Below, in pieces: positions 3,351-62,154 of a DNA stretch of 64,000 nucleotides. Both the position numbers and the translations under genes were made by a program. The stretch comes from Morinoia aosen (taxonomy: Eukaryota; Arthropoda; Malacostraca; Amphipoda; Talitridae): positions 3,376,838-3,440,837 of the forward strand of contig CM059580.1 in assembly GCA_030386875.1 (NCBI GenBank). Reading direction: 5' to 3'. The notes below the pieces were generated by a model. The model made no database searches and had not been told where the DNA came from. It worked only from the letters and a program-made list of their open reading frames with translations. How positions within the stretch are numbered: position 1 is the first letter of the stretch; the number at the start of each line of letters is the position of its first letter.

Positions 3351-3388
3351 AACAAATTACTGCTCGCCAGGGTGGTTCTTAGTTCCAG

Positions 3389-12300: not shown

Positions 12301-12796
12301 AAAGAGCAGTCGGATGGTGACGTTAATCTTCAAAGAGATGGCAAATTGAAAATCGTTGACAAATTCCAAATCCAAAATACTGCTTTGAAAAATCGCCATA
12401 ATCAAGAAAACTTTAAACCGATTTCTTACGGGACCCTGGTTTTCGAAAGTCCGGTTATTGAAAAACCTGTTTCTGAAAGACCTGTTTCCGAAAGACCTGT
12501 TTCTGAAAAACCAGTTTCCGACAGACCTGTTACTGAAAAACCGGTTTCTGAAAGACCTGTTTCTCAAAAACCGGTTTCCGAAATACCTGTTTCTGAAAGA
12601 CCTGTTTCCGAAAGACCTGTTTCTGAAAAACCGGTTTCCGAAAGACCTCGTACTGAAAAACCGGTTTCCAAGGACACGCTGGCTTCTGAAAAATCTGGTT
12701 CTGAAGAAACACCCTTATATGAGAAGCCGGTATCTGATGCGCTCAAGAAACCGACTTGGACCAAGAAACCGAAACCGAAAATTTTGCGGCCTGAAG
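3389..12796 (+). CDS. Unc-89: Exon 1: giant low-complexity repeat exon
   Basis: Open from 3325 to a stop at 12871. No ATG is needed: the frame runs up through an Ala-Pro-rich stretch (3406-3465), with a possible acceptor at 3387-3388; another at 3490-3491 would enter a different frame, so the 5' edge is uncertain. The donor is at 12797 (GAAG/GTACAG), phase 1, and joins exon 2 in frame as ...KILRP-E-A-PPHV. Successive protein repeat blocks are MNEPQSP (3778-4020), GDGKTTT (about 4840-6930), ESFIGVP (7129-7410), VCGVPGTE (7981-8268), [10 protein letters not shown] (8371-8950), [16 protein letters not shown] (9299-12280) and [11 protein letters not shown] (12450-12680), with unique charged or acidic Ser-rich spacers between. 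No globular domain is recognised. By analogy with the KSP region of nematode UNC-89 or titin PEVK it may be an extensible, disordered spacer; that is inference. An independent gene is less likely because the donor and phase fit Ig1. Confidence 0.7.
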
Positions 12797-16775: not shown

Positions 16776-19700
16776 GCTGGGCTAAAGGCAAGGTAGGGCT
16801 TCCTTTTATTGATATAGAATAGTTTTTTCTTTTTTTATGGACCATTTTTTCTCAGTTGACTGCCGTCCGGTTTTTCAGCACCTATTGCTTTTTTTTTAAT
16901 TCAAAAATTTTTTCTAACTTGCAGTTCCTATGCACTTGGTGCATAGATTCCACGTTCCTTTCAGTCCATACAAAACGGTGCCTAATCTTATTATGGATTC
17001 GAAAGACACGCAAAGCCTACACCCAACCCCCTTGCCCCCCTCCTTAAGCAACATTGACTGCCCCTTTACCCCTGACAAACATTTAACCCTCCCTTTGTTC
17101 CTCATTACTCAAATTTAACCCCAAAATTTAACCTCTTTTGCCTCCATTTTGCAACATTTAACCTTTGCTGCTCCCAACAGTGCAACATTAATTTCAACAT
17201 CTAACCTTTTTTGCTCCGTTACGTAACATTAACCCTCACTTCCCTCCTCCCCATCACGCAATAATAACCCCCCTCTCCCCCCCAGCGCCCCCCCACGTGC
17301 TGTCGAACAACTTCAGTGAGGGCAAGAAGGTGGTCGCCATGCACAAGTTCGTGCTCGAAGTCGAGGCCACAGCCGTGCCTGACGCTGTCGCCACCTGGTG
17401 GGTGTTGGTATCTAGGTTAGGGTACTAATACTGGTACTGGTATTTAGGTCACGGTTATCCCAGATGGGCGCTGAGTACTGGGTGCTGGTATCTAGGTTAG
17501 GGTACTAGTACTGGTATCTAGGTTAGGGTACTAGAACTGGTATCTAGGTTAGGTTAGGGTACTAGTACTGGTATCTAGGTTAGGTTAGGGTACTAGTACT
17601 GGTATCTAGGTTAGGGTACTAGAACTGGTATCTAGGTTAGGTTAGGGTACTAGTACTGGTATCTAGGTTAGGGTACTAGTACTGGTATCTAGGTTAGGGT
17701 ACTAGAACTGGTATCTAGGTTAGGTTAGGGTACTAGTACTGGTATCTAGGTTAGGTTAGGGTACTAGTACTGGTATCTAGGTTAGGGTACTAGAACTGGT
17801 ATCTAGGTTAGGTTAGGGTACTAGTACTGGTATCTAGGTTAGGGTACTAGTACTGGTATCTAGGTTAGGTTAGGGTACTAGTACTGGTATCTAGGTTACA
17901 GTTATCCCAGCTGGGTACTGGTGCTGGGTGCTGAGTACTGGGTGCTGGTATCTAGGTTACAGTTAGGGTACTGGTACTGGTATCTAGGTTACAGATTATT
18001 AGATTAGATTATAAGTTAGTTTAAGCCTCCCTAACCGCTGCAAAAATAGAGCGTATCGAAGAGAGGAAGGAGGAAGGCACCATTTAGTATGGGGATAAGA
18101 AAATGAGGAATCTATGCAGAAGGGGCATAGAAACAGTAACATGGGAAAGAAGTTCATGAAATAAGATAAAAGTTGAAGAAGAAAGTCAGAGGTGCTGAAA
18201 AACAGGACAGTAGTGAACCGAAAAAAGTTGGTCCCTAACATAACAAAAAAAATTTTATTTCAACAAAAAGAAGGCCTACCTAACTCTCAGCTCGGGCCCT
18301 CACATTTTTCCCCTGGGAGCGCTAATTCCCATAGATACAATAGTTGTATCCCCCTGAGGGGATCTAGGTTACAGTTATCCCAGCTGGGTACTGGTGCTGA
18401 GGGCTGAGTACTGGGTGCTGGTATCTAGGTTACAGTTAGGGTACTGGTACTGGTATCTGGGTTACAGTTAGGGTACTTGTACTGGTATCTGTGTTAGGTT
18501 AGGGTGCTGGGTGCTAGTACTACGAAATTGTTACTAGTGCAGAGTACTGGTACTTGGGCCACAGTGACATTTCAGCACGTGTGACGGATTTAAGGAGTTC
18601 AGCTCAGTGATCTTTTGTTCGTGGACCGATTGTTGTTGAATTTTTCCAAGCGTATGTAAGTTTTTAAAATAAACACATTTTGCTCAAGTTACTTTTGCGA
18701 CTTAGCAAGTCAACGACATGTCAACAACATGTCAACAACATGTCAACAACATGTCGACGACATATCAATAACGTGTCAATAGCGAGTCAATAGCGAGTCA
18801 ATAGCGAGTCAATAGCGAGTCAATAGCGAGTCAATAGCGAGTCAATAGCGAGTCAATAGCGAGTCAATAGCGAGTCAATAGCGAGTCAATAGCGAGTCAA
18901 TAGCGAGTCAATAGCGAGTCAATAGCGAGTCAATAGCGAGTCAATAGCGAGTCAATAGCGAGTCAATAGCGAGTCAATAGCGAGTCAATAGCGAGTCAAT
19001 AGCGAGTCAATAGCGAGTCAATAGCGAGTCAATAGCGAGTCAATAGCGAGTCAATAGCGAGTCAATAGCGAGTCAATAGCGAGTCAATAGCGAGTCAATA
19101 GCGAGTCAATAGCGAGTCAATAGCGAGTCAATAGCGAGTCAATAGCGAGTCAATAGCGAGTCAATAGCGAGTCAATAGCGAGTCAATAGCGAGTCAATAG
19201 CGAGTCAATAGCGAGTCAATAGCGAGTCAATAGCGAGTCAATAGCGAGTCAATAGCGAGTCAATAGCGAGTCAATAGCGAGTCAATAGCGAGTCAATAGC
19301 GAGTCAATAGCGAGTCAATAGCGAGTCAATAGCGAGTCAATAGCGAGTCAATAACACCCCTGAACCGCCAGGTTCGTGAACAACAAGGAGATATCGGCCG
19401 CAGAAGACGTGAAGATATCACGTGACGGCCAGAAGTACACGCTGGAGCGTGTAGGGTGCGACCCTGAGCACAGCGGGGAGTACACCTGCAAACTTAAGAA
19501 CAAGATCAAGGAGGTGGCCGTAACGGGCAATGTAACGGTCTACGGTGAGTACTGTAACGGGAAATGAAACGATGCCTGGTGAGTGCTGTAACGGACAATG
19601 TAACTGTCTACGGTGAGTGCTGTAACGGGCAATGTAACGGTCTACGGTGAATACTGTAACGGGCAATGAAACGGTGTACGGGGAGTGATATAGCGGTGTA

Positions 19701-22700
19701 GAATACGATGTAGTAATTGGTCGACCTGTGCGCCAATACACAAAGTTTAAACTATGAATAATTTCTAATTATACGTATTTTCGATACATTTATTTTCGAT
19801 GTGAGTGATATATCACCTATCTACTAACTTTAAATTCTTAACATTATATAAGAGGAGTTGCACATGGTTGGTTCAAATCATATCGGAAGCAATATGTCGA
19901 CATTGACGATGCACAATTGGAACGACAGACAATCAGCCATGGAGTTCCCCAAGGGTCGGTCCTTGGGCCTCTCGTATTCTTGATCTTTATCAACGATTGG
20001 ATTAGAAATGTGGAGAGCGTAAGTAATGAGCTGCAAAAGGTTTCAATGCGGCTTGACACTAATAAAATATGTCTTAATACTGATAAAACAAAGTGCATAT
20101 TATTCTAATACAAGAGAAATATGTTTCTTCCACGCATTATGACTGGTGATGGTGAAATTGAAGAAACAAACTCCTGTGAGTTCCTAGGCATTATATTAGA
20201 TAAACATCTGATATTCAAAGAGCATATTGCTCGTATCAGTACTAAATTATCAAAGTTCGTAAGAATTTGTCATACAGGGGAAAATGCATTGCCCGAAGAA
20301 AGTTTAAAAAAATTTTATTGTAACATAATTTTACCATATTACAATACGGAATCGAAGCTCGGCACAGAACTGATAAAAATAAAACAGATTTGCTTTGGAC
20401 TCCAAAAAGATCTATTCGATCGGTAATGAAATAAGAATTCAATGCTCACACAAATGATTCACTCGATAGGTAGTTTTTGGGTCTCTACAAGCTCACGATG
20501 CGCAATTTCATGTATAAGATACTGACTGATAATGGCGTTAGAGAACTCAAACAATTATTAACTGCTCAAACTGGCCATCATGATCATTTAACCCGGAATA
20601 GAAGTAACGTCATTATTCAAAATCTCGGTCACAACAGTGACCTCTTCATTGGAACTAAGAATTGGAACGCAATCCCTGCTGAGATCTGTGGAAACAGTTC
20701 TTACAAAGCTTTCAAAACAAATCTTGAACCCCTCTTCCTATCGAAAAAAATGTTAATCACATGAGGTAATTAGATTGATTTTTTTCTGTTTTATGTTTTA
20801 TCTTGATGGGGAAATTTACCATGGTTAAAGACATAGATCTTAAGTCTGTTCCCAATCATTTTCTAGAACACACTGTTCCCATCTAGCCCATGCAAACTAT
20901 TTTTGTAAAATTATGTATAGAATCTTGAGAGCACTAATTTATAGATCAGTCTAGCGTGTAACTAGTCTCAGTAAATTAGGTTAAAAATAACTGTACACCT
21001 TGAAATATCGTTGAAGATAGGATGCCCTAGAAGTCGCTGAAGTTATTCAGGCCCACAAGTAGCTATACTCAAATGTGTCCAGTGTACTAGACTCAACACT
21101 TCGACTGCGGCTGGTAAAGCTGAACCTTAACATCCAACTCATATTTAAAGTCAATTGCAGTCAGCAATGTTGAAAATAGCAAACATGAACTGGATCGTGC
21201 CTTCATTTAGCTTTGATTAAGTATTTATGGAAATTGTGTTTGCGACTACTGGTCGGTCAGCAGCGTTGTGAAAATCACCTCCGTGTACCACCGGTGGCGC
21301 ACGTCCCCGTCAGAGTGCTGAGAAACAATCTACGGCTGCATAACTTGGGGGAATAAATTGTTAGAATTGTTTAACGGACATACATATCCTCTAATTAGTC
21401 ATTTCCTACGCCCACAGAAAAGGAAGCGCGCGTGCGCAATCCTCTGCAGGATGTCTACGTGAAGGAGTTCTCGGCCGCCACTCTCAAGTGCCAGATTGTG
21501 GGCGATCCTGTGCCTTCTGTTGAGTGGTGAGTGGCGTGTGTTGAATGGTTTCCTGTCGAAAAAAAAAAGGACAGAATGCTTCATTTCAACCAAGCCTGAT
21601 GCATGTCACCTTGTACATCGGTATATCAAATGCCTCATAACTAACACCAGGACGCCATGACGGTTGGTATATCAAATGCCTCATAACTAACATCAGGACG
21701 CCATGACGGTTGGTATATCAAATGCCTCATAACTAACACCAGGACGCCATGACGGTTAGTATATCAAATGCCTCATAACTAACACCAGGACACCTTGACG
21801 GCTGGTATATCAAATGCCTCATAACTAACACCAGGACGCCATGACGGTTGGTATATCAAATGCCTCATAACTAACACCAGGACACCTTGACGGTTGGTAT
21901 ATCAAATGCCTCATAACTAACACCAGGACGCCATGACGGTTGGTATATCAAATGCCTCATAACTAACACCAGGACGCCATGACGGTTAGTATATCAAATG
22001 CCTCATAACTAACACCAGGACGCCATGACGGTTGGTATATCAAATGCCTCATAACTAACACCAGGACGCCATGACGGTTGGTATATCAAATGCCTCATAA
22101 CTAACACCAGGACACCTTGACGGCTGGTATATCAAATGCCTCATAACTAACACCAGGACGCCATGACGGTTGGTATATCAAATGCCTCATAACTAACACC
22201 AGGACACCTTGACGGTTGGTATATCAAATGCCTCATAACTAACACCAGGACGCCATGACGGTTGGTATATCAAATGCCTCATAACTAACACCAGGACACC
22301 TTGACGGTTGGTATACCAAATGCCTCATAACTAACACCAGGACGCCATGACGGTTGGTATATCAAATGCCTCATAACTAACACCAGGACGCCATGACGGT
22401 TACCCCCGGTCAAGCCGGTACCCATTTCCGACACCTGGGTAGAGTGGGGAATTGTAGCTGAGTTCTCTCTTTACCCAACGGGGAGAAAAACCGGGTGGCA
22501 CTGCCTAGATTCGAACCTCCGACCCTCCCGTTTCGGGCGCTGGCTCTTGACCACTGAGATACTGTGACCTCGTGATACTAGAGTGTTGAGGGCCTATTTT
22601 CGGGTTATGATTAGCTCCTGTTTCGTAGTGAGGAGCCTCTTGTAGAGTGGCGAGGGGGTTCTGTTGAGTAGTGAAGGGGTTCTGTTGAGTGGTGCGAGGC

Positions 22701-25700
22701 TTCATGTTGAGTGGTGCGGTGTCCTGTTGAGTGGTGCGTGGCTTCTTTTTGAGTGGTGAGGGATCTCTGTTGAGTGGTGTGCGGTTTATTTTTTAGTGAT
22801 GACTGGATTTCTCTTCAGTGCTGAGTGCCTTTCTTTCGATGGGTGAGGCGCCCCCCCCCAAACTGACTCCCCCCCCCCCTCCCTCCCCCCAGGCTGCGGG
22901 ACGGCGCCCCCCTCCCCCCCTCGGGCCGGTTTGAGGCCTCCGAGGACCGGTCCACACACTGGCACACCCTCGTCTTCAGGGACGTGGCAGAGAAGGACCA
23001 GTGCACCTTCACCGTCAAGGGTACCAACTCCCATGGTACCTGCGAGACTTCGGTGGGTACCATGTGTCTGGGGTACTTGTCGTGGTACTTGTCGGGGTAC
23101 TGGTGGTATGGTGGAGATACGTGTATGGGTACTTGTGCTGGTGCGTACCGTGTACTTGTGTACCGTGGTACTTGTGCTGGTGCGTACCGTGTACTTGTGT
23201 ACCGTGGTACTTGTGCTGGTACGTACCGTGTACTTGTGTACCGTGGTACTTGTGCTGGTACGTACCGTGTACTTGTGTACCGTGGTACTTGTGCTGGTAC
23301 GTACCGTGTACTTGTGTACCGTGGTACTTGTGCTGGTACGTACCGTGTACTTGTGTACCGTGGTACTTGTGCTGGTACGTACCGTGTACTTGTGTACCGT
23401 GGTACTTGTGCTGGTACGTACCGTGTACTTGTGTACCGTGGTACTTGTGCTGGTACGTACCGTGTACTTGTGTACCGTGGTACTTGTGCTGGTACGTACC
23501 GTGTACTTGTGTACCGTGGTACTTGTGTTAGTACGGCTCATAAAATTGGTTGATGTTCAATAAATTGAAATATCCTTTATTTTCGATATTTCGAATTTTT
23601 TCGAAATATCGAAATTTTTTCGATATTTTTATCTTTCGATATTTCGATATTTTTCGGAAATTGAAATAAATTTTCGAAAGCAGCGGATGCAAATTTTTTA
23701 TTCGATTTTCATGAGTTATGTAAAGATTTCTGTAAATAAATAAACTCAATGTGTTTTTTGTCCGTTCCTTGTCCGTTTTTTTTAATTTTAGTACAAGATT
23801 TTTAATTTTCAAGATTTAGTGCAAGATTATTAATTGTACAAGATTTAGTACAAGATATTAAATTGTACAAGATTTTAATTTTCGTACATGAGGTACAAGA
23901 TTTTAATTGGTTTTTAATTGTACAAGTGGGTCAGACATGTTTTGGCTACATCTACATATAAAGTAAATAAATAGAAATCGATTAGCCGTAATGAAATTAA
24001 TAAATAGGACTTTAACAAATAAAAAAATTGACAATTAATTGCTTTCCCTATTAAGTAATTTGTGCCTTTACTTATCTATGGAAATGAGCTCTTCCAAAAG
24101 GAAAGTGTGAGGTCCCGAGCTTAGTGTTAGATAGACCTTTTTTGTTGCATAAAAATAGTTTTTTGTTACGGACCATCTTTTATCGGTTGACTGCTTCCTG
24201 TATTAATTTCTTCTTCAGATTTTGTCTTGTTTCATAGACTTCTTTTTCAACTTACTCTTTCTGTACGCAGGGTGTGGGGACCACACATCCCGTGCATAGA
24301 TTCCCCGTCCCCTAAATCCATATTAAATAACGCCTTATTTTTTTTTACTATAACACATTTGCCTTAAATGGCGCAGCCCAAGTTATTTCATTTAGTATGT
24401 AATTGGCTTTACTACGGTTAGGAAGGCCTAAACTAACTTATTTAATTTAGTATGTAATTGCTGCTTATTAATGAGTTCGCTGTCCCCAGTGCCGCCTGGG
24501 TGTGCTGGTGAAGCCCCAGCCTGGGGAACTAAATGGGGACACCGTCGACTACGGCGGCAACGTGACGCTGTCGGTGCCCATACACGCCTACCCCGCGCCT
24601 AAATTGGTCTGGTGAGCAAAATTGGCGTTGTAATGGGGCGAAATGGGGATCAAATAGGCCGAAAGTAGAAGGTTCTCTATTGATATCGCCTGCTCTGCGC
24701 CTAAATTGGTCTGGTGAGCAAAATTGGCGTTGTAATGGGGCGAAATGGGGATCAAATAGGCCGAAAGTAGAAGGTTCTCTATTGATATCGCCTGCTCTGC
24801 GCCTAAATTGGTCTGGTGAACAAAATTGGCGTTGTAATGGGGCGAAATGGGGATCAAATAGGTCAAAAGTAGAAGGTTCTCTATTGATATCGCCTGCTCT
24901 GCGCCTAAATTGGTCTGGTGAACAAAATTGGCGTTGTAATGGGGTGAAATGGAGATAATATAGAACTGAAATAGGTTTTCTATTGATATCGCCTACCCCG
25001 CTCGTAAATTGGTCTGGTGAATGAAATTGGCGTTGTAATGGGGCGAAATGGGGACGAAAAAAGGCTGAAACAAAAGTTCCTTCACTTATTTCACTATAAT
25101 TCGAATTGTAAATTTTTTGAAATTGTTGTAATTGGGTAAAGTTTCTTGACATGACAAACTGTGCTCTTCAGGAGTTTGAAAATAATTTTTTTTTGTCAGA
25201 GCGAGAGCCTTCGGGAATTAAATGCTTCACATCTGGAATTGATTGAAATTGGACGTAATGAAATTGAAAATAGGGGAGCTATTGATGTGTAATTACGCGA
25301 AATAAGGCAGAACTTTACCATCCCCCCCCCCGCGCAGGTCGCAGAACGGCAAGGAGGTTCCCGACTCTGACCACACCCGCTACGTGCGGGATGAGGCTGC
25401 CGAGATCTACAGCATCGTCATCTCCAACGCGACGCTCGACGACATCGGCACGTGGGGCTTCGTCGCCTCCAACGACGCGGGCGACGCGCAGGCCACGTGC
25501 AAGCTGCACGTGCACAGTGAGTGGGGGCACGTTGGGGGTGAGGAGGGGGGTGCACGTGTTTGTATGTGCACCGTGAGTGGAGGCACGTGGGGGTGGGGAG
25601 GGTGGGGAGGGGGGTGCGCGTGTTTGTATGTGCACAGTGAGTGCGGTGCACGTGAGGCACGTATATTGTACGTGCACGTCTGTATGTGCGCGTGGGGTGT

Positions 25701-28700
25701 AGGTGCACGTGAGTGTGTGATGCACGTGGGTGTATGTGTGTACGTTGGATGGGCTCACACATGTGCGTGGGGCACTTATGTAAGTATGTGTGTGTGTAGG
25801 TGCATGTTATGTACCTACACACACACCCTTAAAGGGCCCCAAAACTCCCTCAAAGCTCCATAAACTGCTCGGAACTTTATCTGGTTTACCCGTGTTGCAG
25901 CCATGGTACCGTTAAGTCTCCTTTAACTACTCTATGAACACCTAAAATCTTCTCACAATCATCCAAAACCTACCACAAAGCTCCATAAACTGCTCTAACT
26001 GCCTCAAAACTGCTCACAACCGCCCCAAAACTGCTCTAAACTACCCCAAAATTGCTCTAAACTACCCCAAAATTGCTCTAAACTACCCCAAAATTGCTCT
26101 AAACTACCCCAAAATTGCTCTAAACTACCCCAAAATTGCTCTAAACTACCCCAAAATTGCTCTAAGCTACCCCAAAATTGCTCTTAACTACCCTAAAACT
26201 GCTCTAAACTACCCCAAAACTGCTCGTAACTACCCCAAAACTGCTCGTAACTACCCCAAAACTGCTCTAAACCGCCCCAAAACTGCTCTAAATCAAACCT
26301 GGTTTACCCGTGCCGCAGCCGTGGTGCCGTCGGTGTCGCTGGAGCTCAAGTCGCAGGACGTGTGCCTGGAGGACGAGGTGACCTTCACCCTCAAGTGCTG
26401 CGGCCTGCCGCTGCCCGAGCCCAAGTGGAGCAAGAAGGGCGTCCTGCAGAAGGAGGACGACCGGACCACCATCAGGAGCGTGGAGGCGGACACTCACACC
26501 ATCACCTTCAAGGATGTCCGCATGGAGGACTACGGCAAGGTGGCTTACCCGTGTGCTGGTATAGGGAGGCTTTATTTTACAAAAGGGTTACCCGTGTGCT
26601 GGTATAGGGAGGCTTTATTTCACAAAAAGGTTACCCGTGTCCTGTTATAGGGAGGCTTTATTTTACAAAAGGGTTACCCGTGTGCTGCTATGGGGGCACT
26701 CATGATGATAGGATGGTTACCCGTGTCCTGTTATTGGGGCACTCTTGATTATTGGAGGGTTAGCCGTGTCCTGTTATTAGGGCACTCTTGATTATTGTAG
26801 GGTTACCCGTGTCCTGTTATTCGGGCACTCTTGATTATAGGAGGGTTACCCGTGTCCTGTTATTGGGGCACTCTTGAATATGGGAGGGTTACCCGTGAGT
26901 TGTTAGTTGCAGGGTCTAATTTGTTTGGTGGCGTATCCGTATGCTGTTCCAAGGAGAGTAATTCACTTGGTAGGTTACCCGTGTGCTATTATAGGCAGGC
27001 TTTATTTCACAGAAGGATTACCCGTGTGCTGTTATAGGTAGGGTCTAAATTATCAGAGTGTTACTCATGTTCTGTTATAAGCGGGGTCTAATTTGTATAA
27101 CGGCTGACCCGTGTGCTGTTATAAGGACTTTCTTAATTATAAGAGGGGTACTCGTGTGCTCGTATGGGCGGGATCTTGATTAGAGAAGGGTTACCCGTGT
27201 GCTGTTACGACTAGACATAATTACATCAGCACTACCACGGGTGGGACTATTAACAGAGCTATTTATCTAGGCTACGTCGCCCCTACCAACGTTGACTTAA
27301 CGCCTACCGCAGATCGAGGTGGTCGCGACGTCGGTGGTGGGCACGACGACGTCGTCATGCGAGCTGACGCAGAAGACGTTGCCGTGCGAGGTGCTGGAGG
27401 GCCTCGAGAACGTCACAAAGGGCGCCGAGGGCGACGACGTCACTCTGTCCGTCCTCGTCCGTGCGTCGCCTCGTCCCGTCGTCATCTGGTGAGACGTCGC
27501 CTCGTCCTGGGGCGGGGACGTGTTACCGACGTCGTTTAATCTGATTTGACATATTCTGGACGTAATTTGTTTCAATTTGACGTATTTTAAACGTCATTGA
27601 CGAAAATAAGATGTATTTTGAACGTCATTTACAATTTGACGTTTTTTGGACGTTATTTGCTCCTGTCTGACGTATTGTGGACATCACTAAGTCTTATATG
27701 ACGCATTTCGGACGTCATTTACTCTAATTTAACGTACTTTGAGCGTATTTTTGAAAAACTAACGTAAAATTTACTATAACTATCTTTATTGAGATTTGTT
27801 GTTGTTACCTAAACCTCTACACTTCGCACACACTCATACTCTCCACCCATGTCAAAACTTTCTGCAATATTTCACTTCACCACCGCCAAAAGTGTGCGTG
27901 TCAATGAGTCCATACCGAAACTGCTTTAGAAACTGCCATTCATTGCCAGGATTTCACGATTTTTTGTAAAGTAGCTGCCGTTTGTTGCCACAGCTGCCGG
28001 ATTCTGAATATAAAAGCCGCTGTTTGTTGCCACAAATGTTGGATTCTGCCTGAAATGCTGCCGTTTGTTGCCACTACTGCCAGATTTTGCATAGAAAACC
28101 TGCCGTTTGTTGCCACAAATGTTGGATTCTGCCTAAAATACTGCCGTTTGTTGCCACTACTGCCAGATTTTGCATAGAAAACCTGCCGTTTGTTGCCACA
28201 AATGTTGGATTCTGCCTAAAATACTGCCGTTTGTTGCCACTACAGCCAGATTTTACATAGAAAACCTGCCGTTTGTTGCCACAAATGTTGGATTCTGCCT
28301 AAAATACTGCCGTTTGTTGCCACTACTGCCAGATTTTGCATAGAAAACCTGCCGTTTGTTGCCACAAATGTTGGATTCTGCCTAAAATGCTGCCGTTTGT
28401 TGCCACTATTGCCAGATTTTGCATAGAAAACCTGCCGTTTGTTGCCACAAATGTGGAATTCTGCCTAAAATGCTACCGTTTGTTGCCACTACTGCCAGAT
28501 TTTGCATAAAAACCCAGCCGTTTGTTGCCACAACTGCCGGATTCTGTTTGTAAAAGCTACCGTTCGCTCCTCCATATGCCGGTTTTATGTTTTTGTGTAA
28601 AAAATGTTCCGTTTGTCGCCGCAGGACGAAGGATGGCGACCAACTGATCGAGAGCGACAAGGTCGTCATCACGGCTGAGAAAGTCTCCTACTGCGATATG

Positions 28701-49700: not shown

Positions 49701-52700
49701 ACCCTGCCCCCCCACCAGGAGCAAGCTGGAGGTGCCCCCCGTGTCACAGCTCCCCACCCTGCAGCCCCCGCAGGAGCCGACGGAGGGTCCTGTCGTGCCC
49801 GCGGGCTTCACCATCGACAGGGACACCCGCGGCAACTACTTCGCGCCTCCTAGGTGAGCGTGGGTCCTGTCTAGGTGAGCGCCTGTCTAGGTGAGCGTGG
49901 GGCCTGTCTAGGTGAGCGTGGGCCCTGTCTCGGTGAGCGTGGGCCCTGTCTAGGTGAACGTGGGGTCCTGTCTAGGTGTGCGTGGGGGTCCTGTCTAGGT
50001 GAGCGTGGGGTCCTGTCTGGGTGAGCGTGGAGTCCTAGGTGAGCGTGGGACCTCACCTAGGGCCCGTGGGGGGTGAGCGAAACTAGGTAGAGTCATTTAT
50101 ATGGGGGAAATACACCTCCTCTTGTTCGGCTAGCCAATAGGAAGGCATTATTTCATGACGTCACCATTGCGACATGTCGTTAGGCTAATAGGGGAGATTG
50201 AAGTGTTGCCAAATGCGATATGAGCGCTGCTATTGGTCCGTTGTCGTGGCATCACCATCACGACATGGACAAAAAAATGACTGGTTTGACCCTACCTTGT
50301 CCTTACACTGGGTACTTTAATATAGAGGATATTTTAAACAGCTGGTGAAGAAATTGATAATGATAATCTAAACTATGTATAATAGGAGCCAAGTTAATTA
50401 AACGGCGAGGCATTTATAATTTTCGCCGCCGTTTAAGCTTTTTTGTTCAAGGCGGCTATAATAACCGTACCACCGGCCGTTGTAACCGTACCACCGGACG
50501 TCCTAACCATACCACCAATCGTCCTACCATACCACCGGACGTCCTAACCATACCACCAATCGTCCTACCATACCACCGGCCGTCCTAACCGTGCCACCGG
50601 CCGTCCTAACCGTGCCACCGGCCGTCCTAACCGTGCCACCGGCCGTCCTAACCGTGCCACCGGCCGTCCTAACCGTGCCACCGGCCGTCCTAACCGTGCC
50701 ACCGGCCGTCCTAACCGTGCCACCGGCCGTACTAACCGTGCCACCGGCCGTCCTAACCGTGCCACCGGCCGTCCTAACCGTGCCACCGGCCGTCCTAACC
50801 GTGCCACCGGCCGTCCTAACCGTACCACCGGCCGTCCTAACCGTGCCACCGGCCGTCCTAACCGTACCACCGGCCGTCCTAACCGTGCCACCGGCCGTCC
50901 TAACCGTGCCACCGGCCGTCCTAACCGTGCCACCGGCCGTCCTAACCGTGCCACCGGCCGTCCTAACCGTGCCACCGGCCGTCCTAACCGTGCCACCGGC
51001 CGTCCTAACCGTGCCACCGGCCGTCCTAACCGTGCCACCGGCCGTCCTAACCGTGCCACCGGCCGTCCTAACCGTGCCACCGGCCGTCCTAACCGTGCCA
51101 CCGGCCGTCCTAACCGTGCCACCGGCCGTGCTAACCGTGCCACCGGCCGTCCTAACCGTGCCACCGGCCGTCCTAACCGTGCCACCGGCCGTCTTAACCG
51201 TGCCACCGGCCGTCCTAACCGTACCACCGGTCGTCCTAAACGTACCACCGGTCGTCCTAACCGTGCCACCGGCCGTCTTAACCGTGCCACCGGCCGTCCT
51301 AACCGTACCACCGGTCGTCCTAAACGTACCACCGGTCGTCCTAACCGTACCACCGGTCGCCCTAACCGTATAAACCGGTCGTCCTAACCGTACCACCGGT
51401 CGTCCTAACCGTACCACCGGTCGTCCTAACCGTACCACCGGTCGTTCTAACCGTACCACCGGTCGTCCTTACCGTACCACCGGCTGTCCCAACCGTACCA
51501 CTGTAACCGCACCACCGGCTGTCCTAACCGTACCACTGTAACCGTACCACCGGCCGTCCTAACCGTACCACCGGCCGTCTTTACCGTACCACCAGCCGTC
51601 TTTACCGTACCACCAGCCGTCCTAACCGTACCACCAGCCGTCCTAACCGTACCACCGGCCGTCTTTACCGTACCACCGGCCGTCCTAACCGTACCACCGG
51701 CCGTCTTTACCGTACCACCGGCCGTCCTAACCGTAACACCAGCCGTCCTAACCGTACCACCAGCCGTCCTAACCGTACCACCGGCCGTCTTTACCGTACC
51801 ACCGGCCGTCCTAACCGTACCACCAGCCGTCCTAACCGTACCACCGGCCGTCTTTACCGTACCACCGGCCGTCCTAACCGTACCACCAGCCGTCCTAACC
51901 GTACCACCAGCCGTCCTAACCGTACCACCAGCCGTCCTAACCGTACCACCGGCCGTCTTTACCGTACCACCGGCCGTCCTAACCGTACCACCAGCCGTCC
52001 TAACCGTACCACCGGCCGTCCTAACCGTACCACCGGCCGTCCTAACCGTACCACCGGCCGTCCTAACCGTACCACCGGCCGTCCTAACCGTACCACCGGC
52101 CGTCCTAACCGTACCACCGGCCGTCCTAACCGTACCACCGGCCGTCCTGACCGTACCACCGGCCGTCCTAACCGTACCACCGGCCGTCCTAACCGTACCA
52201 CCGGCCGTCCTAACCGTACCACCGGCCGTCCTAACCGTACCACCGGCCGTCCTAACCGTACCACCGGCCGTCCTAACCGTGCCACCGGCCGTCCTAACCG
52301 TACCACCGTAACCGTACCTGTTGCCGCAGGTTCCTACGGCTGCCGTCGGACACTCAGTACGGTCAGCGCAGCTTCAGCGGCTCCCTGCGCTGGTACGCCT
52401 TCGGGTACCCGACCCCCAAGATCAGGTTCCTCTTCAACGGCGTGCCCCTCGAGACGGGGGTGAAGGGGGGCAGGGTCACCCACACCCAGGACGCTGGGGG
52501 GGAGATTATGGTCTTCATAGACAAGTGAGGGACTTTGTTGTCCTAATGTTGGGTGTCCTTATCGTTAATGTCCTAGTGTGTCGTGAAATTTCCTTCTCTA
52601 ATTCTGCATTTCCTAATGGGTCGTACTGTGTCCTACCATAGTAGTCCTTCTGTGTCCTACATTTATACGTCGCAATTTGTCCTATAATAATTTTCCCTAA

Positions 52701-55700
52701 TCCTGTATGTCCTAGTGTGTCCTAATCCTGCATGTCCTAGTTAGGGATAATAACCTCGTAAGTCTCCAATTGATTGACCACTTGAGTGTAACATGACGCA
52801 ATCGCCGATCCATTTCAGCTAGTGAAAGTTGCAATTGACACTGGAAATATTGATGAATGATCAATTTCTACATTGTACTCGGAAGGTTCGTTGAACAGTG
52901 CACATCCTATTGCGATTTGCATCGAGGGGAAAACGTGGGGTCCCGAGCCAGAAGTTAGATTAAGCCTTCCTTGTGTTGGAATAGAATAGGTTTCTTTTTG
53001 TTTCGTTACGGACCATCTTTTTCGGTTGACTGCTGTCCTGTTTTTCAGCACCTATTGCTTTCTTCTTCTACTTTTGTCTTGTTTCATGAACTTCTTTTCT
53101 GACGCGTGTTTAGATTCCCCTTTTCCTCAACTCCACACTGGACGACGCCTTTTCCCCTCCTCGCGTTGGAACGCCTTGTTCCGTGGCTAAGGAAGTTATC
53201 ATTAGTTAATTTATAAGTTATTAATGACTTATGATCTATAACTCATGAACAACATACAGGGTGACGGAGGCGGACGTGGGCCAGTACGAGTGCATCGCCC
53301 GCAACGAGTACGGCGAGTCGCGGCAGAAAATCAACTTCGAACTCGCCGAGTACCCGAGGTGGGGGGGGGGGGGGGAAGTGTTGTTTTGGAAGTTTGATGG
53401 GGGGGGGGGTTTGTAGGGTATATGAGGGGGGGGGGGGAGTGTGGGGTAGTATATAAGGGGGGGGGAGGGGGGGAGTGTGGGGTATATAAGGGGGGGGCAG
53501 TGTGGAGAGTATCGAATTTTTTGAGAGGTGTCGTTTGGGGATTTTAAGGGGAGGATAGTGTGCGGAGTATGGGGATTTGGGGGGATAGGAGAGGAGGGCA
53601 TTTGGTAACTTTGAGGGGGTTTTCGTGGGGGGGAGGGGAAGTGTGGGGAGTATGGAGGGTTTTGGCGGGGGTTGTTTTTTTAAGGGTGGGGAGTGTGGGG
53701 AGGAGGGGCGTTGTGGGGATTGTGAGAGGCGAAGCCGTGTGGGGAATGTGGTCCTGAGGAGAGATAGAGAAGGGGAGGAAGGGGATTTAAGGGTGATCAG
53801 GGTCGTACTTGAGTCGTATCTGGGTTGTAAACATAAGTTCCAAGATACACGTCTTAAATGAGATCATTATTTATTTAGGAAAGTCAACGAATAAAAATAT
53901 TTTGGAACGTTTTGACCTCCAGGGTTATTATCAACCTGAAAACAAGTAGAAAAACTAGTCATATGTCAAATTAACATCAACCATGGAAGAATATAAGCAA
54001 AATAACACATGAAATGAACAAAATAATATAATGTTCAGTATGAAAATTCCGTTAGTTGTAAGGGGAAGCTGACTGCATATAATTTAAAACCGGTTTTTCT
54101 TTTAAAATGAGGAGAGACTCTAAATATTTATCCATTAGATTTAATGGAATAGAAATTATTAGTCTAAAAATCGCCTAATTTAACAGGGTATTAGGGTTAT
54201 GGCAGGGTTGTCACAACCCTAATAATCGTTTATATTCAGCTAGGGTTGTGGTTTGGTTGTGGTGAGGTTGTACTAAGGTAGTGACAGAGTGGAGTTTTTT
54301 GTAGAAAAACTTCATTATAATTTCGGGCTGTTAATTTCCGAGGTGTTACCATTCTTACGACCGTGATATGGTAGGGTTATGGTAAGGTTATGGTAAGGTT
54401 ATGGTAAGGTTATGGTAAGGTTATGGTAAGGTTATGGTAAGGTTATGGTAAGGTTATGGTAAGGTTATGGTAAGGTTATGGTAAGGTTATGGTAAGGTTA
54501 GGGTAAGGTTAGGGTAAATTTAGGGTAAGGTTAGGGTAAGGTTAGGGTAAGGTTAGGGTAAGGTTAGGGTAAGGTTAGGGTAAGGTTAGGGTGAGGTTAT
54601 TGTAAGGTTAGGGTAAGGTTAGGGTAAGGTTAGGGTAAGGTTATGGTAGGGATATGGTAAGGTTAGGGTAAGGTGATGGTAGGGTTATGGTAGGGTTATG
54701 GTAGGGTCATGGTAGGGTTATGGTAGGGTTATGGTAGGGTCATGGTAGGGTCATGGTAGGGTCATGGTAGGGTTATGGTAGGGTTATGGTAGGGTCATGG
54801 TAGGGTCATGGTAGGGTTATGGTAGGGTTATGGTAGGGTTAGGGTAGGGTCATGGTAGGGTCATGGTAGGGTTAGGGTAGGGTCATGGTAGGGTCATGGT
54901 ATTGTCATGGTAGGGTCATGGTAGGTCATTGTAGGGTCATGGTAGGTCATTGTAGGGTCATGGTAGGGTTATGGTAGGTCATTGTAGGGTCATGGTAGGG
55001 TTATGGTAAGTTTATGGTAAGGTTATAGTAAGATTATGGTAGGAGGAAAAATATGGTTGTACTTATCACTAGATATTGCTGTTGTTGTTACGAGGTTATG
55101 GGAGAGGTTTCCATGAGGTTATTTCTAGTATGTGATTAAAATTTTGTTATATATGTTTTTGTGATGTATGATAAGCTTGTCTTTTTGTATAGGCATTAAT
55201 AAGGTACCATTCTGGAGGGAATATTGTGTTATTTAAAAAAGTTATCAAAAAATTGAGCAAAAAATTATAAAAAATGGAGGAAAAATAGCTTAATTAAACA
55301 AAACGATTATAAATAAAATTAGTAAGGGTAAAGCTTAAGTTACTGAATTAAGCTTATCATGTTAATTTAAGCTGAAGCAAAATTAGGTTTGAGCCCCCAA
55401 ACAATTAATTCAAAATAAATAGAATAAAATTAGCGTGGAGAATGAAGTTTTGTTTTGTGTTGAAAAAGAAGAAAATTTTCAATTCACTTCGAATTATTGG
55501 AATAAAATTAGGGAACTAAATAAAATAAACTTTACATAAAAAGAAGTAAAAATAGTTTATAAAATGAGTTAATATAAAACTTAACCATTAAAATCCCTCA
55601 CAGAGTCACGCAACATCTTGAAGAAACGCATATCCGGTCACACGCGACCGGCCGGATAGTGTGCCGGATAGCCGGATATCCGCCGTGTACTGTCCAGTGG

Positions 55701-58700
55701 TACAAGGATTGGATGCCTCTGCAGAAATCCTTCAGGATCCGGGTAAGTTCATCCCGGATACTAGTATCTGGATACCAATATCCGGTCCCGGATACAAATG
55801 TCCGGCCCCGGATACAAATATCCGGTCCCGGATACAAATATCCGGTCCTGGATACAAATATCCGGTCCTGGATACAAATATCCGGTCCCGGATACAAATA
55901 TCCGGTCCCGGATACAAGTATCCGGATGTTAACTTATTTATTGGTTACCTGTAGGAATCGCTGATACATGTATCCGAACATCGGTATCCGTAGGCCAAGT
56001 CAAATATTATTTAATATATGTAGGAATCGCTGGATATCTGCATCCGGATAAATACTCGTATCCAGATTTTCTGCTGGACAAAATCCGTAGGATGTTTTGT
56101 TATGATCATCAGTCGAACCCTCTAGATATCTATATTTCAAGCATCCGGATACCCCATGCATCCGGATACCGGATACCTCATGCATCCGAATACCTCATGC
56201 ATCCGTATACACCATGCATCCGGATACCGGATACCTCATGCATCCGAATACCTCATGCATCCGAATACCTCTTGCATCCGAATACCTCATGCATCCGTAT
56301 ACCCCATGCATCCGGATACCCCATGCATCCGGATACCGGATACCTCATGCATCCGAATACCTCATGCATCCGTATACCCCATGCATCCGGATACCCCATG
56401 CATCCGGATACCGGATACCCCATGCATCCGGATACCGGGTACCTCATGCATCCGAATACCTCATGCATCCGAATACCTCATGCATCCGTATACTCCATGC
56501 ATCCGTATACCCCATGCATCCGGATACCGGATACCTCATGCATCCGAATACCTCATGCATCCGAATACCTCATGCATCCGAATACCTCATGCATCCGTAT
56601 ACCCCATGCATCCGTATACCCCATGCATCCGGATACCGGATACCTCATGCATCCGAATACCTCATGCATCCGTATACCCCATGCATCCGTATACCCCATG
56701 CATCCGGATACCCCATGCATCCGAATACCGCGTGCATCCGGATACCTCATGCATCCGGATACCTCATGCATCCGGATACCTCATGCATCCGGATACCTCA
56801 TGCATCCGGATACCTCATGCATCCGGACACCCCATGTATCCGGAGACCCCATGCATCCGGATACCCCATGCATCCGAATAACTCGTGCATCCGGATACCC
56901 CATGCATCCGTATACCCCATGCATCCGGATACCCCATGCATCCGAATACCTCGTGCATCCGGATACCCATGCATCCGGATACCTCATGCATCCGGATACC
57001 TCATGCATCCGGATACCTCATGCATCCGGATACCTCATGCATCCGGATACCTCATGCATCCGGACACCCCATGTATCCGGAGACCCCATGCATCCGGATA
57101 CCCCATGCATCCGGATACCCCATGCATCCAGATACTTCATGCATCCGGATACCCCATGCATCCGGATACCCCATGCATCCGGATACCCCATGCATCCGGA
57201 TACCCCATGCATCCGGATACCCCATGCATCCGGATACCCCGTGCATCCGGATCTGTTTAAGGGTCTGAGGACCCCTCACACCGCGTGCATAGATTCCCTG
57301 TTTGTTTGATCAACTCCACATCAAATGGTGCATTCCTCCTTCCTCTCCATGGAACACCTTTGTAATGGCTAGAGGGCGTGCTCTATATTTCGATCTTAAG
57401 CTTAATTTTCAGTGAAACGAAATTATTTTTTCCTCAATATCTGTATCTCGAATTGCTTTTTCTTTATTGCTAGATTAATTTTACTGTATTTTCGTGAATA
57501 ATAAATTACTTTTTTTTATTTTTATACTTGCAGTCGGAATTCATCGAGCCCGACCTCTACATCCTGAACTTCAACGGCGCCATCGTGCGGGACTGCGGCC
57601 TGTACTCCCTGAGCGCTGTCAACGTTGCCGGGGCCGCCTGCAGCTCGGTAGGTGGCTGGCAACTGGCAACGTGTGGCAACTGGAGAGTTGTGTGGCAATT
57701 GTGCGATATGTCGGTTGTGGTGGTGTCGGTCAACTCTGATTAGTTAACTAGAGCTTTGTGGGACAGCTGTCAACACGTGGCAACTGGAGTGTTGGGTTGC
57801 AACTGTCAACTTGTGGCCACTGTCAACTTGTGGTATCTTGAGTGTTGTGTGGTAATTTTCAACTTGTGGCAACTGTCAACTTGTGGCAACTGTCAACTTG
57901 TGGCAACTGTCAACTTGTGGCAACTGTCAACTTGTGGCAACTGTCAACTTGTGGCAACTGTCAACTTGTGGCAACTGTCAAGTTGTGGCAACTGTCAACT
58001 TGTGGCAACTATCAACATGTGGCAACTGTTAACATGTGACAACTGTCAACGTGTGGCAACTGTCAACGTGTGGCAACTGTCAACGTGTGGCAACTGTCAA
58101 CGTGTGGCAACTGTCGACGTGTGGCAACTGTCGACGTGTGGCAACTGTCGACTTGTGGCAACTGTCAACTTGTGGCAACTGTCAACTTGTTGCAACTGTC
58201 AACTTGTGGCAACTGTCAACGTGTGGCAACTGTCAACTTGTGGCAACTGTCAACGTGTGGCAACTGTCAACTTGTTGCAACTGTCAACTTGTGGCAACTG
58301 TCAACGTGTGGCAACTGTCGACTTGTGGCAACTGTCAACTTGTGGCAACTGTCAACTTGTTGCAACTGTCAACTTGTGGCAACTGTCAACGTGTGGCAAC
58401 TGTCAACTTGTGGCAACTGTCAACGTGTGGCAACTGTCAACTTGTTGCAACTGTCAACTTGTGGCAACTGTCAACGTGTGGCAACTGTCAACGTGTGGCA
58501 ACTGTTAACATGTGACAACTGTCAACGTGTGGCAACTGTCAACGTGTGGCAACTGTCAACGTGTGGCAACTGTCGACGTGTGGCAACTGTCAACGTGTGG
58601 CAACTGTCAACTTGTGGCAACTGTCAACTTGTTGCAACTGTCAACTTGTTGCAACTGTCAACTTGTGGCAACTGTCAACGTGTGGCAACTGTCAACTTGT

Positions 58701-61700
58701 GGCAACTGACAACGTGTGGCAACTGTCAACTTGTGGCAACTGTCAACGTGTGGCAACTGTCAACTTGTGGCAATTTTGGTGTCGCGTGCCAAGTGTAGAG
58801 TTGTGTCACTGAGCAAGTAAATGCGCTCAATGAGCAGTGCTACCAGATGCAATATGAGCGCTGCTATTGGTTCGTTGCCGTGACGTCAGCAAAACCACGC
58901 CGTCAACGAAAGAAAGACTGGTTTGAACCTACCTTGTTTCCTTTACCGTGCTACACAGTAAATAACCCCCAGTTACCTCCCCCCCCCCAGTGCCTAGTAC
59001 AGGTGGAGGACGACGACGACACCTTCGTCTGGACGGGTCCCGGCAAAGGGCGTCACGTGCAGATCAACAGACGCAGGGGGCAGCTGGAGGACCACTATGA
59101 CGTGGGCGACGAGCTGGGGCGTGGTACCCAGGGCATCACCTACCACTGCGTGGAGCACTATACTGGTGGGTGGTGGTGGTGTGGTAACCAGGGCATCACC
59201 TACCACTGTGTCAAGCACTACACTGGTAGGTGGTGGTGGTGTGGTAACCAGGGCATCACCACCACTGTGTCAAGCACTACACTGGTAGGTGGTGGTGGTG
59301 TGGTAACCAGGACATCACCTACCACTGTGTCAAGCACTACACTGGTGGGTGGTGGTGTTGTGGTGGTGTGGTAACCAGGGCATCACCTACCACTGTGTCG
59401 AGCACTATACTGGTAGGTGGTGGTGTTGTGGTGGTGTGGTAACCAGGACATCACCTACCACTGTGTCAAGCACTACACTGGTGGGTGGTGGTGGTAGGTG
59501 ATGGTGATGTGGTGGTGGTGTTTCTGGTTTCATTTTATACATGGTAGGTGGCGGTGTTGTGGTGAATGTAAAGTGGTGGTGTTGTGGTGGTTGTGAGGTT
59601 GACGTGTTGTCGTTGTGAGATGGTGGTGTTGGGGACGATGATGCGAGTACCACCGTATTGTGCTGCAATGACCCAGCACCACAGTAGTACCTTGACCTTT
59701 TGGTACGTGTTGAATGGTACCTCTTGTAGTCACCATGACCGAGTGGTCGCGAGCGTGCCCTCCCAATTGAAAATTATCGCCCTTTTCTGGTAGTAAATTA
59801 GTCGTAAAAGATCAAAAACGGCACAAAAGGGCCAAAAATCACGACTTCAAACCGACTCCTACCTATACTTGGCCTATTAGGGCTTGAAAAGGGCTCTTCA
59901 TTCAAATGGCCTTTTATAGGTCTAGTCAATGGCTGTTTTCAGGCTCATTCGGGTCGTTTAAAGTCGTTTTCAAGCCTTTTTTGACAACCTCTAGCCTCGT
60001 TCAAGTAGTAGAGAAGCCCAAAATGGCCGTTGCCTTAGCCGTTTCGATGCCCAGAAATAGCCGTTTAACAGGGCTTAAAATAAGTGACATTTGCACTGAA
60101 AAGGGCTAATTTACTGCTTGAAAACGACCATCCCATGGCTTATAACTCCTTGAAAACGCTCTGTAAAAGGCTCAGAATTTCAATTGGGCTTCACGGGAAG
60201 GGTTGGCAGTTCGAATCCCGGCAGTGCCACCCGGTTTTTCTCCCCGTTGGGAAAAGGGAGAACTCGGCCACAATTTTTCATTCTACCCAGGTGTCGGAAA
60301 TGGGTACCGGCTTGACTGGGGGTAACCGTCATGGCGTCCTGTTGTTAGTTATGAGGAATTTGAAAAAACCTATGTGCAAAATGATATGTACCAAGCTTGA
60401 TTGGAATAAAACATCCTTTCTTTCTTCATTTCTTTCGAAGTTGGTGGGGACATGACCCTTACAAAGTTTGGCCACAATAACATTCCCTACTTGTACCCAG
60501 GTCCCAATTTGACCCCAACTAAGTTTTTCCACGATAAAACTCCCAACTTGCCCCCAGGCCGCAACTTGGCGGCGAAGAGCATGTGGGGACACGACCGCTT
60601 CAAGGTCTGGATGCACCTGGAGCACGAGATGATGAACCTGACCAACTCCTGCCGCTACATCTGCCGCCTCTACGACGCTTACGAGAGCCCCAGGAACATG
60701 GTGCTGGTCATGGAACTGTATCCTTTGTGGGCCTGCTCTCCTGGGGGGAGGGTACTCTCCGGGGGTGAGGGTACTCTTCTGTTCTGAGGGTACTCTCCTG
60801 TGGTGAAGCTACTTTCTGGGTCAATCATCAATGTACATCGACTATCTCAAGATAGTGACACACTTGTGTGTGTCATAGGATGATATAACACACATAAGTG
60901 TGTCAAGCTTTACACACTTGGTGCAAGCCAGTACTATTTCTCATAAATCTTTCATTTTCTAATACCAGCCTGAAAATACACGGAATAACTGATAATATCT
61001 ACGAATTTGAAGAAAAAATAGCCATCACTTAAATGTTTTATTTGAGAATTATCCACCTTTGAGAAATTCGAAAGAATGCAAATTTTTTACAGGGAAATTT
61101 TTCACAGTTTGCAGCATGAATATGTGATTTATCTTTTCCAACCGCTTAAAGCTGTGATCTGAGGTGATGTATCAGATGTAACAGGATTTCTTCAAATAAC
61201 CGTTTGACACACTCAAATGTGTCCAAATAACCGTTTGACACACTCAAATGTGTCCAAAAAAATCGTTTGATGCACTCAAATGTGTCCAAATAACCGTTTG
61301 ACACTCTCAAATGTGTCCAAATTTCTGTTAGTGAACTTGCTCATATATATATATGCAGTATATCACTACTCCTGCAAGCGTGACATTAATATTAACTCTT
61401 ATTCATAGAATATGAACCATGTAAGATTAATACCACACAATCATACATACAGTATGTAATAACATGTTAGGTCATTATGACCAAATGACTCTTTACTCAA
61501 TAATCCTTTTCAAAGTCTTTTTTCCATAACAGCCCTGAGTAAAAACAGTACACAAACCCTACACAATCACAACACCAACCTATACAATGCCCACACACCA
61601 TCGCCTCGTACTTCCCCTGCACAATACCCCCACGCCCTATACACAATACCTCCCCTACGCCCCCCTTCTTAATACCCCCGCACCCCCTGCACATAACGAA

Positions 61701-61890: not shown

Positions 61891-62150
61891 GTGAGTACTG
61901 GGGCCTCAATGTGAGTACTGGGGCCTCAATGTGAGTATTGGGGCCTCAATGTGAGTACTGGGGACTCAATGTGAGTACTGGGGACTGAATGTGAGTACTG
62001 GGGACTTAATATGAGTACTGGGGCCTCAATGTGAGTACTGGGGCTTCAATGTGAGTACTGGGGCTTCAATGTGAGTACTGGGGCTTCAATGTGAGTCCTG
62101 GGGACTTGATGTGAGTACTGGGGCCTCAATGTGAGTACTGGGGCCTCAAT
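61879..62150 (+). repeat. 20-base array of exon 31 end/donor, about 13 copies
   Basis: GGCCTCAAT/GTGAGTACTGG is repeated head to tail, each copy with an intact GTGAGT donor. Confidence 0.92.
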
Positions 62151-62154
62151 GGGC

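Follow-up and report, generated by a model that had tools for sequence, protein, structure and literature searches.

The 64,000-nucleotide stretch of the amphipod Morinoia aosen analysed here (C25:3376838-3440837, forward strand; hereafter the window, within which positions are counted) belongs to a genome assembly of 1.99 Gb in 29 contigs and carries on its plus strand one obscurin gene, with 31 exons (e0-e30) forming a single open frame. The subject of the analysis is the minisatellites of this gene, whose repeat units at many 5' splice sites (donors) copy the end of the preceding exon together with the donor itself. Spliced in silico, e0-e30 yield 4640 codons without a stop, and the product is most similar to obscurin-like proteins from Penaeus (58% identity over 90% of the query) and Scylla (55%) and to a hypothetical Halocaridina protein (57%). 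The obscurin/UNC-89 architecture is present, comprising Ig and FnIII domains and then the start of an obscurin-type kinase; among PDB entries, the kinase part is matched by obscurin 8ak2 (E 2e-34) and also by chains of titin and twitchin.

The first exon, e0 (3370..12796), is a giant low-complexity exon with coding minisatellites; its frame is open from 3325, the true start being uncertain, and its donor reads AAG/gtacag (the slash marks the splice junction here and below). The short exons e1-e30 (17286..61890, plus strand), which encode the Ig and FnIII domains and the kinase start, are supported by their one frame, by alignment with shrimp obscurin and by the kinase match to 8ak2. They lie at 17286-17397, 19372-19544, 21418-21526, 22893-23052 and 24490-24611 (e1-e5); 25338-25516, 26319-26539, 27313-27488, 28625-28702 and 30776-30885 (e6-e10); 31734-31848, 34316-34491, 36535-36649, 37540-37718 and 39775-39974 (e11-e15); 40530-40691, 42276-42371, 43317-43468, 45174-45329 and 45847-45992 (e16-e20); 47327-47560, 48640-48760, 49719-49853, 52330-52524 and 53260-53358 (e21-e25); and 55604-55742, 57534-57647, 58991-59165, 60558-60717 and 61752-61890 (e26-e30). 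Exon N of the initial annotation of this DNA corresponds to e(N-1). Against Penaeus obscurin, 27 of 30 exon junctions were testable and all 27 align gap-free within 4 residues, local identity being low (0.25-0.31) at four of the junctions tested; 19 of 19 are likewise gap-free with Halocaridina and 14 of 14 with Scylla. Since the testable junctions align gap-free with the shrimp protein, the first, exon-proximal donor is taken as the working one, and by this alignment it is the donor that the conserved protein requires. The intron after e29 (60718-61751) looks U12-type, with the donor GTATCCTTT and with TCCTTAAC shortly before the acceptor, and has no donor-crossing array.

Copies of exon ends and donors in the introns

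When the 30-mer from -15 to +15 at each donor was compared by alignment with the remainder of the intron it belongs to, with 870 mismatched junction/intron pairs as the null (99% point 13.0, maximum 16), 16 of the 31 donors scored above 13.0 (e2, e3, e5, e6, e10, e11, e12, e13, e14, e16, e19, e21, e22, e23, e28 and e30) and 15 scored above 16; e7, e20 and e25 tie at the threshold score of 13. The initial annotation had read the exon end and donor as amplified after a set of named exons and had proposed self-alignment at every exon border as a check; in the junction test the same 16 donors and no others are positive. Exon tails of 20 nt recur in their own intron at a score of at least 12 in 8 of 31 cases, against 0.2% of mismatched pairs. 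The tandem unit itself spans the exon-intron boundary, with 14 of the 65 merged arrays in the 30 complete introns crossing a donor, and the donor GT is kept in 129 of 134 copies after e11, 12 of 13 after e30, 14 of 18 after e14 and 3 of 5 after e22. Import of one shared satellite into every intron was ruled out, since the units match the end of the exon that precedes them and not other introns.

The units vary widely in length and in the share of exon they include (all arrays on the plus strand; scores from the junction test, out of 30). The array after e2 (19520..19686, found with Tandem Repeats Finder, TRF; score 28) has a 34-nt unit whose first copy includes 25 nt of exon, and that after e5 (24595..25054; score 30) a 102-nt unit with 17 nt of exon. 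Unit and exon share are about 60 and 7 nt after e6 (25510..25654; score 19), 22 and 13 nt after e14 (37706..38479, with more copies at 39514-39702; score 28), 88 and 35 nt after e16 (40657..41325; score 28), 61 and 27 nt after e21 (47534..47649, followed by a 22-nt array at 47682-48270; score 28), about 27 and 12 nt after e22 (48749..48902; score 25) and about 60 and 45 nt after e28 (59121..59495; score 25). After e11 (31845..33987; score 20), 134 copies of the 16-nt unit AGTG/GTGAGTGAGGGG provide 125 decoy donors that score within 0.5 of the real donor or better. The array after e12 is complex (ACTGTCAACC/GTGAGTGCT; 34482..34956; score 28) and has further copies, the best at 35170-35199, and the arrays after e23 (CTAG/GTGAGCGTGG; 49850..50036; score 20) and e30 (GGCCTCAAT/GTGAGTACTG; 61882..62151; score 24) have units of 21 and 20 nt respectively. 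The further claim that the arrays begin at the splice junction needs amendment at two of these donors: after e3 the copies of exon end and donor lie 1.15 kb downstream in a displaced array (22641..22779, TRF; best copy 22680-22700; score 17), and after e10 the array (30890..31470; 22/44-nt unit; score 21), which includes a copy of exon end and donor at 31032-31054, starts 4 nt inside the intron. The exon end and donor of e19 are indeed copied (45320..45406; score 21), but as one extra copy 54 nt away (45384-45406) and not as an array, and after e13 (exon 14 of the initial annotation) the donor is repeated with a 25-nt period (36649..37021; score 16, equal to the null maximum), but the copy has only one exon base.

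Three other features of these introns were noted. The 88-nt units after e16 hold, at 40756-41380, what may be a 21-nt microexon in frame (cag/GGCTTCAACTCCATCCAGCAG/gtggga), whose cag is kept in six intronic copies and replaced by gag in two; the last copy, near 41350, has a better acceptor (cttcttgcag). A dispersed element (...ttttcggttgactgctgtcctgtttttcagcacctattgc...) occurs at 379, 16847, 24180, 34018, 49451 and 53014, in introns and upstream, and a fragment resembling reverse transcriptase was recognized, by eye only, at 19900-20760 in the intron after e2.

Assembly error, with collapsed or expanded tandem copies put at junctions by the assembler, has a reported precedent in amphioxus, where one 'mirage' (a repeat copied over an exon-intron border) was misassembled in a draft (PMC3087553). 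It is nevertheless a most improbable source of the obscurin arrays, as the units differ among introns, the copies carry many point variants, the coding arrays are in frame and a similar junction is present in a myosin gene on contig C11.

The initial annotation also offered selection for redundant donors, by which spare or decoy copies would be kept to strengthen or regulate splicing. Seventeen donors have a TRF array edge between -60 and +5 (including e7, e15 and e18, and excluding e3 and e19), and at three of them (e6, e22 and e28) at least one strong downstream copy would keep the frame. Donor positions +1 to +6 are also slightly better preserved than the rest of the unit (mean mismatch 0.051 vs 0.093), being so in 9 of the 13 arrays that were compared copy by copy, and an intronic minisatellite of Caenorhabditis elegans is reported to be enriched near alternatively spliced regions (PMC4039745). 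However, 9 of 13 falls short of significance in a sign test, the copies within an array are not independent owing to shared descent, and after e23 one copy only was walked. At 14 of the 17 array donors, as far as sequence can tell, no downstream donor that equals or exceeds the real one in strength could be used without losing the frame or meeting a stop. The candidate explanation that weak donors need arrays was rejected, as donor strength does not differ with and without arrays (7.83 vs 6.45, p = 0.20). Selection for spare donors is thus unsupported, because so many array donors have no strong frame-keeping copy downstream, and it appears very unlikely that redundancy kept by selection accounts for the arrays.

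Excess at donors and clearance of acceptors

That chance would not put so many arrays on junctions, as the initial annotation argued, is borne out by a birth model in which one seed for each of the 65 merged arrays is placed at random in the unique sequence of the 30 complete introns. The 14 donor crossings seen compare with 2.55 expected (standard deviation 1.57), and none of 2000 simulations reached 14. Expected crossings rise to 4.84 when the unique target is halved (0 of 1500 runs reached 14) and to 7.06 when it is cut to a third (P = 0.01). If only crossings of 7 nt or more are counted, of which 9 were seen, P is 0.088 at this harshest setting. GC-matched birth rates, taken from the 36 interior arrays, give 3.66 expected donor crossings. 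A donor excess in the obscurin gene is therefore well supported, but it depends on array boundaries and an assumed target.

An alternative is that donors are not special, with minisatellite-filled introns abutting everything except the acceptors, which selection keeps clear. In its favour, arrays fill 56% of intron bases, occupancy in the first 5 nt from the donor (0.48) is about average, and random interior 30-mers recur as often (58% of 310 trials) as donor junctions do (16 of 31). Plain occupancy was, however, dropped as a test of donor association because it counts expanded length, which inflates the figure, while the junction is one ancestral position. Crossings exceed both the uniform-birth and the GC-matched expectation, so that neutral filtering by itself falls short, and the alternative is unlikely as a full account.

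Acceptors present a different picture, as no TRF array in the window crosses one (0 vs 3.99 expected over the 30 complete introns, P = 0.017). From 0-5 nt to 100-150 nt, array occupancy goes from 0.48 to 0.76 on the donor side and from 0.04 to 0.37 on the acceptor side. Acceptor borders are copied at 5 of 30 sites (e7, e17, e19, e21 and e29), with the best copies 46-406 nt upstream; these include an acceptor-seeded array before e19 (...CCCCAG/CGATCCCAACCC; 44904..45089, TRF; acceptor score 21 at 44920-44944), a single copy of the acceptor and e17 start (42033..42062, 213 nt upstream of the real acceptor; score 28) and a copy of the acceptor and e7 start (25886..25912, 406 nt upstream of the real acceptor; score 19), all on the plus strand. 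Outside the window, the acceptor border before a further exon, e31, is copied as well, in an array of acceptor and e31 start (CAG/ATCGGCGATAATCTG; L052:296-413) about 170 nt upstream of the real acceptor, and both 5' and 3' borders are thus affected.

Coding arrays are constrained in another way: the period is a multiple of three in all 13 TRF rows of e0 and in 51 of the 151 rows from introns (the rows overlap one another). The minisatellite periods of e0 include 21, 24, 15, 36 and 81 nt. Taken with the clear acceptors, this restriction of coding arrays to multiples of three suggests filtering by selection. Base composition fits a local seeding of each array, with donor-edge arrays G-rich (mean G skew +0.41, positive in 14 of 16) and near-acceptor arrays C-rich (mean -0.51, positive in 1 of 7). 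In the arrays after e12, e16 and e22, G skew is almost nil or negative, and R-loops would therefore not be a universal cause.

The neighbourhood and the rest of the genome

Outside the window, contig C25 was covered by one 6-kb stretch and six 2-kb samples. The 6 kb past the window contain two further exons, e31 and e32, in the same frame; a 19-nt array starts 3 nt inside the intron after e31 (junction score 16), and after e32 an array with a 20-nt unit of exon end and donor starts 10 nt inside the intron (junction score 22). In the 2-kb samples, the array fraction is 0.51, 0.85, 0.30 and 0.29 at 1.0, 3.34, 3.48 and 6 Mb, and 0 at 2.5 and 27 Mb. The obscurin gene has 65 arrays per 22.4 kb of unique sequence, compared with 74 per 165.8 kb in myosin regions, a density about 6.5 times higher. 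The initial annotation's description of the pattern in one gene has to be seen against this high local density, and one mirage-like junction occurs in the C11 myosin gene.

The myosin control regions (179 kb) include 62 of the 79 listed matches, and arrays cover 9% of them; 46 donors and 31 acceptors passed score cuts, the others being dropped. Extending the survey to other large genes, as the initial annotation had suggested, thus recovered a mirage-like junction but no donor excess: 1 of 46 donors is crossed vs 0.62 expected, in a comparison of low power, and the crossed donor is the one on C11, with a 42-nt unit that includes 19 nt of exon. One of the 31 acceptors is also crossed. Copies of 20 nt at a score of at least 12 were found for 5 of 46 exon ends and 4 of 31 exon starts, and 5 of these 9 fall in a C1 gene with neighbouring similar exons. 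A muscle-type myosin gene at C1:35644596-35648320 has six adjacent matches to one part of the head domain (positions 376-452), like tandem alternative exons. Six further listed loci have no array at the putative donor, and two of those donors score below 0. The lack of an excess in myosin genes is in keeping with the view that donors are not special.

It also bears on the proposal that minisatellites arise preferentially at 5' splice sites genome-wide, where splicing or transcription would write repeats through R-loops in which the non-template strand is rich in G, through pausing, or through invasion of the duplex by U1-bound RNA; obscurin, lying in a repeat-prone region, would then have had about every second donor hit. 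The 14 crossings vs 2.55 expected in obscurin favour this proposal, as do some whole-genome motif counts (three exact tandem copies with gaps of 5-30; loci counted among the matches listed, with one control each). Triples of AAGGTAAGT have 6544 matches, vs 736 for the reverse, 880 for a shuffle and 1385 for the shuffle reversed, and their loci on C1:1-52.3 Mb number 13 vs 3 for the control (p = 0.02, among the matches listed). For CAGGTAAGT, 25 loci vs 6 were found up to C13:50.3 Mb among the matches listed (20 vs 6 with 2-Mb clustering). Arrays of these two consensus donors thus occupy 3-4 times more loci than their matched controls among the matches listed. Against this, CAGGTAAGT matches genome-wide (206) are below the control (309), and AGGTGAGT is raised only 1.18-fold (3912 vs 3317 for the reversed control, TGAGTGGA, which is not clean because it occurs in GTGAGTGGA). 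Moreover, dispersed families could inflate the motif counts, and myosin donors and the low G skew of some donor arrays also speak against the proposal. Array units elsewhere in the sampled DNA carry strong donors near the shuffled rate, at 8 of 54 (5.4 when shuffled), 7 of 71 (6.0 when shuffled, 2 when reversed) and 1 of 18 (1.4 when shuffled), while 10 of 16 obscurin junction-array units do so vs 2.4 when shuffled. The genome-wide evidence for a donor effect is mixed, and donor-specific mutagenesis across the genome is a possible but doubtful explanation.

Origin of the arrays and comparison with known systems

The arrays are probably locally born minisatellites of the mirage kind that arose in an array-rich region and were filtered by selection. 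In this scheme, a tandem duplication would have covered the exon end (1-45 nt), the donor and part of the intron, and its product would then have multiplied into the intron, at a locus whose array density suggests a high rate of array birth or expansion. Homology indicates that the exon-proximal donor keeps working, and exon definition may make the spliceosome choose it; because that donor would stay in use, copies to its right should cost little. Selection would remove arrays that alter the protein or split the acceptor, which is proposed as the reason why coding arrays occur only in multiples of three and no TRF array in the window crosses an acceptor. Such a filter may explain the asymmetry between donors and acceptors, but would not explain the whole donor excess, and initiation or survival would presumably also be favoured at donors. 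Several observations tell against local birth and filtering as the complete account. The birth model depends on TRF boundaries and on a guessed unique target; the donor excess, about 5.5-fold over uniform birth and about 4-fold after GC matching, is more than neutral filtering supplies; two arrays in the window reach within 5 nt of an acceptor; and in the myosin regions donors show no excess, at low power, while the crossed acceptor indicates that acceptors can be crossed.

If donor seeding proves general, splicing or transcription would be tied to the birth of minisatellites, and their starts would have a countable natural system. Whether or not it does, arrays with up to 125 donors that roughly equal or surpass the real one in strength, and are apparently ignored, offer a test of exon-proximal donor choice. 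With 16 copied donors in one gene, the proposed route from mirages to introns could be followed across decapods.

Among known systems, the human gene 6-16 (IFI6) is said to have a minisatellite that overlaps a donor and supplies several usable donors. On that account, obscurin resembles it in having minisatellites that overlap donors and differs in that IFI6 uses several copies, whereas the conserved obscurin protein needs the first donor. Judged by sequence alone, obscurin does not show usable downstream copies of the IFI6 type, as 14 of 17 array donors are without a frame-keeping strong copy and 3 have at least one. Intron gain by tandem duplication of an AG/GT proto-splice site, the Rogers model, has been discussed as an outcome of mirages (PMC3087553). 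Obscurin likewise duplicates exon sequence with splice signals but, unlike in that model, no new intron is inferred and the junctions agree with the shrimp protein. In C. elegans, the intronic minisatellite CeRep25B is reported to be linked with splicing and to form a family clustered on two chromosomes (PMC4039745); it is a repeat family that, unlike the obscurin arrays, is not seeded by the local exon end. For arthropods, a literature search of titles and abstract openings, with full texts beyond its scope, found no border-spanning minisatellites.

The closest parallel is provided by the mirages of amphioxus, reported from Adh3, the globins BflGb6 and BflGb9, TnC and PGBD5 as minisatellite-like copies over exon-intron borders, with units from 10-72 bp (Adh3) to about 160 bp (globins) in which the splice signals are repeated (PMC3087553, PMC3902484). 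They involve both 5' and 3' borders, with regular splicing reported as unaffected (PMC3087553, PMC3902484), and it has been suggested that new introns can arise from them (PMC3087553). The obscurin units share with them that they span the border, carry splice signals and copy both 5' and 3' borders. Unlike the amphioxus mirages, which concern few borders in few genes, the obscurin copies affect 16 of 31 donors and two more downstream, are biased towards donors and occur in a crustacean. Border-spanning repeats are thus already known from amphioxus, and it is their number in one gene, their donor bias and their host that differ here.

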